From contig JAIEMN010000069.1 of assembly GCA_019752115.1 (NCBI GenBank), forward strand, positions 1-36,087: 36,087 nt of DNA, given 5' to 3'. Below are positions 16,976-36,087 of the stretch, piece by piece. The notes below the pieces were generated by a model. It was not told the origin of the DNA and ran no database searches. It was given only the letters and a program-made list of their open reading frames with translations. The number at the start of each line of letters is the position of its first letter. Within the stretch, counting starts at the first letter, position 1. The DNA comes from Gemmatimonadaceae bacterium. GTDB taxonomy: Bacteria > Gemmatimonadota > Gemmatimonadetes > Gemmatimonadales > Gemmatimonadaceae. The position numbers and the translations under genes were made by a program.

Positions 16976-16984
16976 CGGGTGAAC

Positions 16985-17095
16985 GACGTATACGTGATGC
17001 GTATACGTGTTCGTATACCTGGAGCGGGAACCGCGGTTACGTAGTCCGTATACGCTCCATGTATACGCCTCACGTATACGCAACACGTATACGCC
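16985..17095. repeat. Palindrome built from seven GTATAC hexamers between convergent genes
   Basis: GTATAC occurs at 16988, 17001, 17013, 17048, 17061, 17074 and 17087. Spacing is 12-13 bases within each half, and the two halves mirror each other about position 17033-17040, so the segment folds into a long stem (GACGTATACGTGATGCGTAT against ATACGCAACACGTATACGCC). It lies between the ends of the PAS-GGDEF gene and the minus-strand plug protein gene. A bidirectional terminator is possible; it resembles none of the other palindromes in the window. Confidence 0.85.
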
Positions 17096-17096
17096 G

Positions 17097-18641
17097 TTAC
17101 TTCTTGTTCGTAACCCCCCGCGGTCCCGTCCAGATCGCAATCGACCCGCACCCGTTCGGCCGCTGGAACTCGATGGGCAGAGTGGCGGTGCCGGGATAGA
17201 CCTCGATGGCGCGCACTTCTTCGGGGCGGATCAGGTCGTCGATGATGCCGTTGTCGACGGCGGTGTAGACGCCGTTCAGGAAGACGTTGGGGAAGCACTG
17301 GCCGGTGCCCTGCACGCTGCGGAGGCGCACCTGATCGCGGCCGCTGGCGGTGCCGCCGGGCTGGATGGAGACGCCGGGTGTGCCGCGGAGGAGATCGGCC
17401 ATGCGCATGGCGTTGCGGTCCACGATCTTCTTCTCGTCGAGGAAGTAGCCGCCCATCCCCACCTTGCGGCGGTTCTCGAAGCCTTCCATCTGCCGTGACC
17501 ACTTGTCGGCCTGTACCTTCACGGTGTCCACGGTGGGCGTGAGCACGGTGAGGTTCACTTCGGCGAGCGCTTCGAGGCTGTCGCGGAGATCGACCACAAA
17601 GCGCTGCGGCTGATAGCCGACGGCGCGCGCTTCCATCATCCACGTGCCGGGCGGCAGGTTGCCGAGGTTGAACACGCCGCCACTGCTCGTGGCGCTCTGC
17701 GAGTCGTCGCCGCTCAGCACGATGCGCGCGTTGTTCACCGGCTTGCCGGCGGTGTCGCGCACGACGCCGCGCACGCGTGCGTCGCCACGAATGAGCGTGC
17801 GCGGGCGATCGGTGGCGCTCTTCGCGGCTTCGGCGATGCGCTTGGGCTGCGCGATGAGGATGTCGCGCACGAGGAGCCCCGTACGCGGGACCGTGAGCTC
17901 CACGGTGCCGCTCGAGTCGCTGCCGGCGAAGGCGCGCGTCGTGATGTTGACGCCCACCGGAATCCCGCACGCGGCGAACGCCCCGTTCGGGGCGGCATCC
18001 ACGAAACGCGCGGGGAACCGCCGTACCAGTTTGCCGTCCTGAATGGTCGATTCGATGTACTGCACGCGCAGGCGCGCGGGCCCACTGAGCGGCTGCCCGT
18101 TCGCCTGGCGAATGAGCCCGATGAAGGCGCCGTCGCCCGTGCCCACATTGGCCGACCCGCTCGCCGCCGTGGCCTGCGCCCCGCAGCGCAGACCGATGAT
18201 GCCATCCACGCCCGGCGGCCCGAGGTCGAGGCGTACATCGCCACCCTGTTCCACGATGAACTGCACCAGCCGCCCCTCGACCCCCAGTCGCTCGTACTGC
18301 TCATGCAGCACGCCCACGATCCACGTGCCGAGCGAGAGCGAATCGATCACGTACTGCCCGAGTGAGTCGGTCGTGGCCGACCGGAGCTTGGAGGGATCGG
18401 TGCTGAGCACGAACTGCACCGACGCATTCACGAGCGGCTTGAGCGTCGCGCTGTCGAGCACACTCCCCGTCACCCGCGCCTTGGGCGCCGGCGCCAACTG
18501 CGGCACCGTGGACGGCGCCACCGTGGGCGCGGTCGGCGCCGGCTTGGGCGCCGGTTTGGTGGCGGGCCGCACGGGCGGACGCACCTGGGCGCCGGCAACC
18601 GCGGGGAGGAGGAGGGCGGAAAAGAGGAGGTGGCGGGTCAC
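17097..18641 (-). CDS. Secreted carboxypeptidase-regulatory-like / TonB-plug domain protein
   Basis: The 514-residue protein starts at GTG 18641. A signal peptide (MTRHLLFSALLLPAVAGA) precedes a Pro/Ala/Lys-rich linker (20-55). Beta-sandwich regulatory-like repeats follow at about 55-130 (VTGSVLDSATLKPLVNASV) and 305-380 (VRGVVRDTAGKPVNNARIVL, GNLPPGTWMMEARAVGYQP). The C-terminal 110 residues resemble a TonB-receptor plug: MADLLRGTPGV, VFLNG and IEVYPGTATLPIEF. No beta barrel follows, so it is not a full receptor. Similar barrel-less proteins are common in Gemmatimonadota-like genomes. A role in envelope transport or adhesion is inferred only. It converges with the PAS-GGDEF gene and diverges from the creatininase-like gene. 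Confidence 0.82.
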   Translation of the reverse strand: MTRHLLFSALLLPAVAGAQVRPPVRPATKPAPKPAPTAPTVAPSTVPQLAPAPKARVTGSVLDSATLKPLVNASVQFVLSTDPSKLRSATTDSLGQYVIDSLSLGTWIVGVLHEQYERLGVEGRLVQFIVEQGGDVRLDLGPPGVDGIIGLRCGAQATAASGSANVGTGDGAFIGLIRQANGQPLSGPARLRVQYIESTIQDGKLVRRFPARFVDAAPNGAFAACGIPVGVNITTRAFAGSDSSGTVELTVPRTGLLVRDILIAQPKRIAEAAKSATDRPRTLIRGDARVRGVVRDTAGKPVNNARIVLSGDDSQSATSSGGVFNLGNLPPGTWMMEARAVGYQPQRFVVDLRDSLEALAEVNLTVLTPTVDTVKVQADKWSRQMEGFENRRKVGMGGYFLDEKKIVDRNAMRMADLLRGTPGVSIQPGGTASGRDQVRLRSVQGTGQCFPNVFLNGVYTAVDNGIIDDLIRPEEVRAIEVYPGTATLPIEFQRPNGCGSIAIWTGPRGVTNKK

Positions 18642-18810: not shown

Positions 18811-18829
18811 TCCCCCCGCCGCGCCAAAA

Positions 18830-18909
18830 ACCCACAACCCACGACCAAAAACCCGAAACCCACAACTGATCAGTTCCGGGTTTCGGGCTTTTGGTCGTGG
18901 GTTGTGGGT
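18830..18909. repeat. 80-bp palindrome centred on CTGATCAG, upstream copy
   Basis: The two arms pair almost perfectly: ACCCACAACCCACGACCAAA on the left, its complement TTTGGTCGTGGGTTGTGGGT on the right, meeting at CTGATCAG (18867-18874). A second copy of the same family lies at 19860-19939 with its own arm changes, in the same orientation. The pair brackets the creatininase-like gene. Confidence 0.88.
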
Positions 18910-18942
18910 CGGTTGTGGGTCGGTTGTGGGTCGGTTGTGGGT
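18904..18942. repeat. 11-bp tandem repeat (GTGGGTCGGTT)
   Basis: Three full units of GTGGGTCGGTT (18904, 18915, 18926) and a half unit (18937-18942) follow directly on the right arm of the palindrome and seem to be an expansion of its end. Confidence 0.85.
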
Positions 18943-32966: not shown

Positions 32967-33040
<74 letters not shown>

Positions 33041-33119: not shown

Positions 33120-33193
33120 GGCTGGGTAGCTCAGCCGGTTAGAGCGCACGACTCATAATCGTGAGGTCGAGAGTTCGAGTCTCTCCCCAGCTA
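33120..33193 (+). tRNA. tRNA with CAT anticodon (elongator Met, or Ile2 if lysidine-modified)
   Basis: A 74-base cloverleaf. Acceptor GGCTGGG pairs with CCCAGCT (the first pair G·T), TAGCTCAG follows, and the anticodon stem CACGA/TCGTG holds CTCATAA (anticodon CAT). T arm GAGAG/CTCTC has loop TTCGAGT; discriminator is A; CCA is not encoded. Position 1:72 is paired, so it is not an initiator. Elongator Met is more likely, but Ile2 (read by TilS) cannot be ruled out from sequence alone. Confidence 0.93.
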
Positions 33194-33218
33194 CTTCGAC
33201 AATCGCACGTCTGTCGGC

Positions 33219-33370: not shown

Positions 33371-34366
33371 ATGGCATCGCGACTCCTCGAAGAGGTCCGG
33401 GCAAAAGCCGCGCTCAAGCGCTACAGTCCGCGCACGGTGGAGGCCTACGTGCGCTGGATCGTGGCGTTCGTGCGGTTCCATGGCACGCGGCATCCGCGGC
33501 TGTTGGGGGCGGCCGATGTGGAAGCGTATCTCCGCTATCTCGTACAGGAGCGGAGGGTAGCCGCGTCTACGCAGAATCAGGCGCTGGCCGCGCTGCGCTT
33601 CTTGTACCTCAGCGTGCTCGAGATGCCCCTCGAGCAGGTGGCGGCGCTGACGCCGGCCAAGCGGCCGCATGTGCTCCCAAACGTGCTCTCACGTGAAGAC
33701 GTGCGGCGCGTGTTGGGCGCAATGCGCGGTCAGCCCGCGCTGATGGCCCAGCTGCTGTACGGCTCCGGGCTGCGCCTGATGGAATGTTGCCAGCTGCGGA
33801 TCAAGGACCTCGATCTGAATAGGCTGGAGATCGTGGTGCGCAACGGCAAGGGGACGAAGGACCGGATCACGATGATCCCCGCGTCGATGCGTGCCCCGCT
33901 GGCGGCGCACATCGAGCGCGTGCGCCAGGAGTGGGTGCGGCGGCGCATGAAGGGCGGCGGCTACGTGACCTACCCCGGCGTGGGCGGCACGAAGGGGAAG
34001 GGGGCGCAGTTGGCTGCCGGGTGGTGCTGGCTCTTTCCTGCCTCGCGTGAGTACTGGGACGCCGCGATGCAGCGCCACGTCATGCACCATCAGCACCACA
34101 CCGTGCTGCAGCGCGCGGTTCTCGAGGCCGGGCGCCGAGCGGGCCTCACCAAGCGCGTCGGCTGCCACACCCTGCGGCACAGCTTCGCCACGCACCTCCT
34201 CGAGGCCGGGTATGACATTCGCACCATTCAGCAGCTGCTGGGCCACGAGGACGTCTCGACAACCATGCTGTACACCCACGTGCTCAACCGCGGGGGCCAC
34301 GGCGTGCGGAGCCCCCTCGACACGATGGGGCCCGGCGACATCGGCGAGGATCGGCGGCGCTCCTGA
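33371..34366 (+). CDS. intI: Integron integrase (IntI-type tyrosine recombinase)
   Basis: The 331-residue protein starts at ATG 33371. An N-terminal core-binding domain (1-95, YSPRTVEAYVRWI) precedes the catalytic domain with R135 (YGSGLRLME), K160 (NGKGTKD), H266-x-x-R269 (CHTLRHSFATHLLEAGYDIR), H292 (LLGHEDVSTTML) and nucleophile Y301 (YTHVLNRGG). The stretch at about 200-240 (GTKGKGAQLAAGWCWLFPAS, then a His-rich HHQHH) is the extra helix region found in IntI but not in XerC/D, and the end GHGVRSPLD is typical of IntI. All catalytic residues are present, so it should be active. It recombines attI and folded single-stranded attC sites. No LexA box is apparent upstream. Confidence 0.93.
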   Translation: MASRLLEEVRAKAALKRYSPRTVEAYVRWIVAFVRFHGTRHPRLLGAADVEAYLRYLVQERRVAASTQNQALAALRFLYLSVLEMPLEQVAALTPAKRPHVLPNVLSREDVRRVLGAMRGQPALMAQLLYGSGLRLMECCQLRIKDLDLNRLEIVVRNGKGTKDRITMIPASMRAPLAAHIERVRQEWVRRRMKGGGYVTYPGVGGTKGKGAQLAAGWCWLFPASREYWDAAMQRHVMHHQHHTVLQRAVLEAGRRAGLTKRVGCHTLRHSFATHLLEAGYDIRTIQQLLGHEDVSTTMLYTHVLNRGGHGVRSPLDTMGPGDIGEDRRRS

Positions 34367-34593: not shown

Positions 34594-34665
34594 GTTATGT
34601 CGTGCAGGGGCGCGGTAGATGTGATTGCTCGCGGTGATTCCCGCCGGCATAATCAGCGTTCTGCA
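34594..34665 (+). other. Predicted attI recombination site
   Basis: The junction GCGTTCTGC places the crossover G^TT at 34659/34660, because the following TTCTGCAG-TGCGCC is shared with the start of cassette 2. No attC-like fold precedes this junction, which identifies it as attI and not a cassette-cassette junction. A second GTTATGT at 34594-34600 resembles the 7-base core and could be an accessory integrase-binding site. TGATT/AATCA (34635, 34651) forms a small inverted repeat near the crossover. The left border is a guess. Confidence 0.65.
34625..34653 (+). promoter_or_regulatory. Candidate cassette promoter (Pc) inside attI
   Basis: TTGCTC (34625-34630), a 17-base spacer and CATAAT (34648-34653) give a fair sigma-70 match (3 of 6 and 5 of 6). 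Transcription would start about at the crossover point and run into cassette 1. This would give promoterless cassettes a common promoter even though intI points the same way. It is a prediction from spacing and sequence only. Confidence 0.4.
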
Positions 34666-34716
34666 GGTGCGCCGTGTGCGTATTGAAGTGGTGTGTGCTA
34701 GTCGGAGGCGCGGCTG

Positions 34717-35271
34717 ATGGTTTCCGCACTGGCGCCTGTCCCAATCCCGCTCGTAGACCGCTCCTCTATTGTGACTTCGGCAATGACCGCGCGCTGGGCC
34801 CTCCTCACCATGCTCGTGGCATGCGCACCGCCCGACGGCTCTCGCGTGCCGGTCGGTGATTCGTCCCAGGTCGGATCGCTTCAAGCGACTCACGAGGTGC
34901 CTCCGCGATTCGCGCGGGTTGATGTCCGCGTCCTCGACTCCGCCGGTCGACCGGTACCCAACGCGACGCTCTACACCGATCGGTCCGGCCTGAAGCTGGT
35001 CATGGTGGAACGCCGCGCCGATGGGCAGATCCGCTGGGAGGCAGAGGAACGGCTTCAGCTCACCGATCGCGACGGATGGTGGCGCGGCCAAGTGGTCAGT
35101 CCACCACTGGTCGCCGATACGTCATCAACGGACGAGGTGAAGCTGACCGCGTATCAGCTTCTTCCGCCGGACAATCGGGTGAGTAAGGGCTCCGTGCGCG
35201 TCAAGCTCGACTTCGCGCTGGACTCCAGCGTGCGCGAGATTCCTAAGGTGGTCCTACGACTGAACCGATGA
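34717..35271 (+). CDS. Cassette 1 protein: predicted lipoprotein with regulatory-like beta domain
   Basis: ATG 34717 has GGAGG at 34704-34708, a strong ribosome binding site, and gives 184 residues. An in-frame ATG at 34783 would start a cleaner lipoprotein signal peptide (MTARWALLTMLVAC), with the lipid-bearing Cys right after LVA; either start reaches the same lipobox. The mature part has a beta-sandwich-like stretch (ARVDVRVLDSAGRPVPNATL) reminiscent of carboxypeptidase-regulatory-like or big-binding domains, then Trp- and charge-rich sequence with no motif I recognise. It fills cassette 1 and is followed 48 bases later by attC1. The function is unknown. Lower bias toward GC-rich third positions than the core genes is consistent with transfer. 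Confidence 0.75.
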   Translation: MVSALAPVPIPLVDRSSIVTSAMTARWALLTMLVACAPPDGSRVPVGDSSQVGSLQATHEVPPRFARVDVRVLDSAGRPVPNATLYTDRSGLKLVMVERRADGQIRWEAEERLQLTDRDGWWRGQVVSPPLVADTSSTDEVKLTAYQLLPPDNRVSKGSVRVKLDFALDSSVREIPKVVLRLNR

Positions 35272-35319
35272 CTCACGGCACCGTTTTCCGCGTAGTCCCC
35301 GCACGGGGAACGGCCCTAA

Positions 35320-35428
35320 GCAGAACGGGTCGCTGCTGCCGGCAGGGCTATTTCAAGGATGGCGACTGGCTCACTGCGTTCGCCTGTCGCATTGTTATGA
35401 GGCCCCGCGGCAGAGCTTTGCGTTCTGC
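35320..35428 (+). other. attC site of cassette 1
   Basis: Outer boxes GCAGAAC (35320-35326) and GTTCTGC (35422-35428) are perfect complements. Inner boxes GCTGCTGCCG (35332-35341) and CGGCAGAGC (35408-35416) pair with one unpaired base, and the spacers are 5 and 5 bases (GGGTC, TTTGC). An unpaired base in the L box is a hallmark of attC. Between them lie GGGC/GCCC pairing and a central stem GCGAC/GTCGC. The site is 109 bases long. The crossover is between G35422 and T35423. The unpaired base reads as G on the top strand, whereas many described sites have G on the bottom strand; alignment here is ambiguous. Confidence 0.88.
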
Positions 35429-35495
35429 AGTGCGCCGCTATTCGACTTGGATCGATCGTCCACCAATTGATTCTGGCACCGCATCCAAATGAACC

Positions 35496-35858
35496 GTGCG
35501 CACTAAGCGATTTCTCAAGACCTTGGTCGTTGGCGCAGTTCTCCTGCTGCTGGCCGACGCGGTTGTGCGCCCCGCCGGACCAGACCTTCGGACAGAGCAG
35601 GGCCGGCAAGAGTTGATCGGGCGCGGGAATGAAATTCGAGAGGCACTCGAACGGTACCGCTCACGGACTGGACGATACCCACGCGGACTTTGGCAGCTCG
35701 GCGCGCCGCTCCGGTGGCAAGACCGTGCCTACGGCGGTTGGGAATATGAGATGCGAGACGATGGTCACTTCTATGAATTGCGAGTGGGAGGCTACGTGCG
35801 ATACGGATTCGTGCTGTATCGTAGCTCGGCCGCGACAGAGTGGAGCTGGGATACCTAA
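35496..35858 (+). CDS. Cassette 2 protein: small membrane-anchored protein, pseudopilin-like
   Basis: GTG 35496 gives 120 residues; a nearby ATG at 35489 is in another frame and closes at once. A basic start (MRTKRFLKT) and one hydrophobic helix (LVVGAVLLLLADAVV) anchor or export the protein. The remainder has EIREALERYRSRTGRYPRGL followed by Trp/Tyr-rich beta-like sequence (GGWEYEMRDDGHFYELRVGG). Helix, then 'YR..TGRYP', then a short sheet is like the C-terminal half of type II secretion major pseudopilins (GspG), but there is no prepilin peptidase site of the usual GFTLxE form. The function is unknown. It lies between attC1 and attC2. Confidence 0.72.
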   Translation: MRTKRFLKTLVVGAVLLLLADAVVRPAGPDLRTEQGRQELIGRGNEIREALERYRSRTGRYPRGLWQLGAPLRWQDRAYGGWEYEMRDDGHFYELRVGGYVRYGFVLYRSSAATEWSWDT

Positions 35859-35879
35859 ATTCGTCCAGCGATGGCGCGT

Positions 35880-35987
35880 GCAGAACGGGTCGCTGCTGCC
35901 GACGGGGCTGATCAAGGAGGGTGGCTGGCCCGCTGCGCGGGCCTGCCACATTGTTATGAGGCCCCGCGGCAGAACTTGGCGTTATGC
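35880..35987 (+). other. attC site of cassette 2
   Basis: GCAGAAC (35880-35886), spacer GGGTC, L box GCTGCTGCCG (35892-35901), partner L box CGGCAGAAC (35967-35975), spacer TTGGC and GTTATGC (35981-35987). The site is 108 bases and closely similar to attC1 over its whole length. The central stem is GTGGC/GCCAC here against GCGAC/GTCGC in attC1, that is, paired changes on both sides. The terminal GTTATGC does not match GCAGAAC because its TTATGC belongs to cassette 3; with the TTCTGC at the start of cassette 2 it would pair exactly. Confidence 0.88.
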
Positions 35988-36087
35988 GGACGCGCGCGTG
36001 CTCACGGTTGCACAGTTTCTTCGCGCGTAACTGTTCCATCCCGCCCCGATGACGAGCGCAGCGGAACCCCCGTAGATCATCTGCATC
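35982..36087 (+). other. Start of cassette 3 (cut by the window end)
   Basis: The cassette begins TTATGCGGACGCGC after the crossover. No ORF of useful length starts before the end of the window; ATG 36049 closes after eight codons. ACGCGCGCG near 35989 and TTCGCGCGT near 36020 could pair. If it is a normal cassette, its own attC, beyond the window, should begin GCATAAC. Confidence 0.55.

Follow-up and report, generated by a model that had tools for sequence, protein, structure and literature searches.

Near the end of a 36,087-nucleotide stretch of Gemmatimonadaceae DNA, hereafter the window, two similar palindromic repeats follow a gene for a tyrosine recombinase. The question raised by this locus is whether these repeats are attC sites of a chromosomal integron and whether the paired differences between them are a signature of selection for the folded bottom strand, both of which a preliminary description had claimed. 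We hold, with a probability of about 0.93, that the repeats are functional-type attC sites heading a chromosomal-type cassette array. Integrase, array, fold, covariation and a complementarity of the R boxes that is specific to the excised circle support this reading directly, and the sequences suggest that the integron is probably active in recombination. The window is an integron of a known kind with lineage-specific variation: it shares with the sedentary chromosomal integrons of the Vibrio and Xanthomonas type an IntI, an attI-like site, small cassettes that each end in an attC, a conserved attC sequence and a cassette of the toxin-antitoxin type, but it differs from them in that intI points towards the array, and at the spacer-proximal extrahelical position it has C where they have G. 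Gemmatimonadota have been listed among the integron-bearing phyla (PMC8618304); a dedicated study of Gemmatimonas integrons was not found in the literature searched.

The integrase gene and the layout of the array

The gene intI (33371-34366, forward strand) encodes an integron integrase of 331 amino acids with conserved catalytic motifs. Its score of 379 bits against TIGR02249 exceeds the cut-off of 265, and it aligns over its full length with VchIntIA (2a3v, E 1.5e-72), its closest solved relative, which identifies it as a tyrosine recombinase that carries the extra region specific to integron integrases. Transcription of intI is directed towards the cassettes, and an array 3' of intI and on the same strand was found at 29 of 30 Gemmatimonadaceae loci, with one tie. 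Such an arrangement has precedents: intI is transcribed towards attI in the integrons of Treponema (PMC3607928), which belong to another phylum than the window, and attI lies immediately 3' of intI in archaeal integrons (PMC9668308).

Downstream of intI, an attI-like region (34614-34664, forward strand) ends in the crossover G^TTCTGC, with the G at 34658, and the hexamer at this junction is complementary to R'' of attC1. A block resembling ..GTGAT..CC.GC.G..TAAT..CGTT precedes the first cassette in relatives too, which is consistent with this region working as attI, the putative primary insertion site beside intI. Two complete cassettes follow on the forward strand (34659-35422 and 35423-35981); each starts with TTCTGC, and the attC of each starts with GCAGAA, the perfect complement. 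The ORF of cassette 1 (34717-35271, 184 aa) has, judged by eye, a lipoprotein-like N-terminal stretch, and that of cassette 2 (35496-35858, 120 aa) a single N-terminal hydrophobic segment; a search for family matches found none for either. Only the start of cassette 3 is present (35982-36087, forward strand), which is cut by the contig end; it begins with TTATGC and its own attC is therefore expected to begin with GCATAA.

The window is an entire contig (C69, 36 kb) that ends within the array, and further attC sites of the same genome lie on contigs C52, C77, C28 and C35. Overlapping ends that would connect C69 with C52 or with C77 were looked for, and such a join was rejected: no overlap of at least 15 bases exists, though R-box complementarity permits both joins. 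In relatives the integron lies on single contigs of 4.6-5.2 Mb, and in Gemmatirosa on a plasmid record of 1.1 Mb. In several genomes of the genus (G048, G153, G109 and others) attC sites also occur at a great distance from intI, either on its chromosome or on other contigs, as in G048 at 0.40, 4.31 and 4.68 Mb; these are possibly clusters without an integrase. Directly 5' of the intI of the window are two tRNA-Met (CAT) genes (32967-33040 and 33120-33194). A tRNA as a conserved neighbour of intI was not upheld: in the 16 loci of relatives compared, none was seen close to the gene, and most of these loci reach only about 1-3 kb upstream of it.

Fold and covariation of the attC sites

Both sites lie on the forward strand exactly where the preliminary description had placed them: attC1 at 35320-35428 (R'' 35320-35326, L'' 35332-35341, R' 35422-35428) and attC2 at 35880-35987 (R'' 35880-35886, R' 35981-35987). 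Its account of them as sharing the 7-base and 10-base boxes and the spacer holds for one arm. R'' (GCAGAAC), L'' (GCTGCTGCCG) and the five-base spacer between them (GGGTC) are identical, whereas on the other arm the spacer reads TTTGC or TTGGC, L' differs by one base (CGGCAGAGC against CGGCAGAAC) and R' is GTTCTGC in attC1 and GTTATGC in attC2, since what follows G^ is already part of the next cassette. Instead of one unpaired base in the L box, each site has two extrahelical bases on the R''-L'' arm, at site positions 16 and 23 (35335 and 35342 in attC1, 35895 and 35902 in attC2), which is within the two to three found in integron sites. The base at position 16 is G on the top and C on the bottom strand. 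When the bottom strands are folded, the R''/L''/L'/R' boxes of both sites pair within one stem, with z-scores of -3.49 for attC1 and -4.64 for attC2; 1 of 200 and 0 of 200 shuffles, respectively, folded as well.

The central stems differ in the way that had been noticed, GCGAC/GTCGC in attC1 against GTGGC/GCCAC in attC2. However, the central stem of attC2 is a single haplotype that recurs at C52:2488, C52:3194 and C77:59669 and, in another genome, at L059:2411, and a comparison of the two sites alone is therefore weak: what it shows is a difference between haplotypes, not selection. The difference may reflect one or two old events. We see an even chance that it stems from one ancient haplotype swap between families of sites, through recombination or gene conversion, and not from repeated compensation. 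In favour of a swap, copies of the GTGGC/GCCAC stem come with one and the same terminal hairpin (GGCCCGCTGCGCGGGCC); against it, C77:60410 has a G-U intermediate (GTGAC/GTCGC), and independent changes at further stem pairs are seen in other sites. Such a swap concerns the two-site comparison only and is compatible with the integron explanation.

Covariation becomes clear with other copies, in the comparison that the preliminary description had proposed. A covariance model found 20 sites at E<=0.001 in the genome of the window, and attC sites are present in 26 of 30 genomes of the genus; an independent structural finder gave 0 matches in shuffles of its calibration sequences. Among 46 sites of the genus of the 105-113 nt class, aligned with MAFFT without reference to structure, 89% of the cells pair and the covariation score is 0.167; shuffling gives 0.097, with none of 500 shuffles reaching the observed value, and slid controls do not exceed 0.074. 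Changes on both sides are seen in 8 of 27 stem pairs, and pair 22/96 varies as CG, GC, UG, AU and UA. The covariation is thus real and the boxes share one stem, so that neither of the two outcomes named beforehand as counting against the preliminary description was seen. Its assignment of the repeats to an integron of the sedentary type is upheld. The finder also picked up palindromes without extrahelical bases at 16978-17102 and 18825-18918 of the window, which are not attC-like.

Selection for the folded bottom strand in particular, as originally claimed, finds no such backing, since neither energy nor wobble pairs single out that strand. When folded, the top strand is as stable as the bottom strand or more so, and counting G.T against A.C mismatches gives no decisive result, with 29 vs 21 in the alignment made without reference to structure and 3 vs 6 in the R boxes; both were discarded as guides to strand choice. 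All described attC sites have their extrahelical bases on the R''-L'' arm (PMC2727003), and it is this placement in the present sites which suggests that recombination here would use the bottom strand.

Cassettes as putative excised circles

In the circle formed on excision, the six bases that follow G^ in a genuine cassette pair with the R'' of that cassette's own attC. We compared these bases in 62 cassettes, namely 61 that lie between two called sites and cassette 1 of the window at the attI junction, and counted a match as perfect when all four variable bases agreed. Perfect matches to the own cassette were found in 49 of the 62, while shuffling gave a mean of 4.9 and a maximum of 13 in 10,000 trials. 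The informative cassettes are those 53 in which the start differs from that of the next one: here 41 of the R'' boxes match their own start and one matches the adjacent R'. The R boxes therefore co-vary in the excised circle and not in the site as it stands, so that the excised circle, and not the standing site as first assumed, is the unit of covariation. This complementarity is the strongest evidence in our data: the covariation spans whole cassettes, each an ORF plus an attC with a start complementary to its own R'', and it cannot arise from the copying of neighbouring arms. The same test offers a confirmation of cassettes from sequence only and a prediction of adjoining contigs in broken assemblies.

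It also bears on the other explanations available for the repeats. As they are GC-rich, palindromic and intergenic, they might be dispersed palindromes of an ordinary kind, REP/BIME-like or the ends of transposons, whose proximity to a tyrosine recombinase is due to chance. This is hardly credible, given that the variable R hexamers find their match at the opposite end of their own cassette and not in the near neighbour, that the extrahelical bases of the R''-L'' arm are spaced as in attC sites and that the arrays lie 3' of intI in a fixed orientation; the R-box test refutes it in practice. On the other hand, the sites could be attC-like remnants, now decayed, of an array in which recombination has ceased. 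Some of the array is indeed decaying, as the AAC/GTT boxes have been lost at some sites on C77 (44699, 46601) and C28 (25645), but for the array as a whole we consider such decay very improbable: intI is intact with its catalytic motifs, both sites of the window retain all boxes and perfect R complementarity to their own cassettes, and most sites of the genus do likewise. An integron with functional-type attC sites remains the preferred reading, under which the neighbouring IntI would excise and re-insert each cassette. Cleavage would take place on the folded bottom strand of attC, at the G^TT of its R' box, the first six bases of the cassette would pair with its own R'' in the excised circle, and new cassettes would enter at attI, just 3' of intI.

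Extrahelical bases, integrases and cassettes in the Gemmatimonadaceae

Both sites of the window have C as the spacer-proximal extrahelical base. In published attC sites a G is almost always found at this position (PMC2727003), a usual but not a defining trait of integrons; dfrA1 and blaVIM-2, which like the window sites carry a C, are noted exceptions (PMC3053210). What is an exception there is the norm for the family: a finder built on box geometry alone, which reproduced the published assignments for aadA2 and aadA1 (T-N6-G) and for dfrA1 (A-C) (PMC3053210), detected C in 198 of 224 Gemmatimonadaceae sites (80 of 99 in the genus, 118 of 125 in other genera of the family). A change from G to C was tolerated in published assays (PMC2727003, PMC3053210), and several IntIs gave good recombination with T-N6-C variants of dfrA1 (PMC3053210); C therefore does not exclude membership among integrons.

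The integrases of the family deviate at corresponding contacts in our sequence alignment. The residue aligned with Y210 of VchIntIA is not tyrosine in 51 of 54 Gemmatimonadaceae IntIs, compared to 5 of 25 others, and the proline aligned with P232 is lost in 43 of 54, compared to 0 of 25; the remaining contact residues are retained. In the IntI of the window the Y210 column holds a glycine, G209. Y210 and P232 contact the extrahelical bases in the solved structure of VchIntIA. The Gemmatimonadaceae IntIs form one clade (support 99/94), within which the sequences are not independent. Sites and integrases have thus drifted from the recognition pattern of Vibrio and class 1 integrons. Simple co-evolution of the extrahelical C with the loss of the tyrosine is weakened by the Planctomycetota, in which 21 of 28 sites have C and several integrases keep the tyrosine, so that the change in the site and the change in the enzyme are not strictly linked.

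We tentatively suggest, at less than even odds, that the Gemmatimonadaceae represent a vertically kept lineage with an attC recognition code of its own, in which C replaces G at the strand-selecting base and the tyrosine, often with the proline, has been lost. If so, the choice of strand would work in another way than it does in Vibrio or class 1 integrons, and the cassettes would perhaps be partly insulated from those. No report of such a clade-wide change in extrahelical base and integrase was found in the literature searched. The rule of strand choice in folded attC sites derives for the most part from work on Vibrio and class 1 integrons, and a bacterial family that differs in both partners at a key contact is a natural experiment on this rule.

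The attC sites had furthermore been described as near-uniform and as typical of cassettes formed within one lineage. The genome of the window does have mostly one class of sites, but in the genus lengths of 90-138 nt coexist, often within one genome. Formation within one lineage does not agree with the cassette on contig C52 (L009, 243-868), which encodes a RelE-like toxin and a helix-turn-helix antitoxin and is common to other genomes of the genus: it is 81.6% identical over 831 bases to another genome, and the attC region preceding it is 99.4% identical over 178 bases to a third. As a whole cassette is common to different species, cassettes are not confined to one lineage; they probably move between species, or are at least common to them. 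An attC type of 135 nt is likewise near-identical (131/135) in two genomes of the genus, at L009:47-181 and L052:2122-2256.
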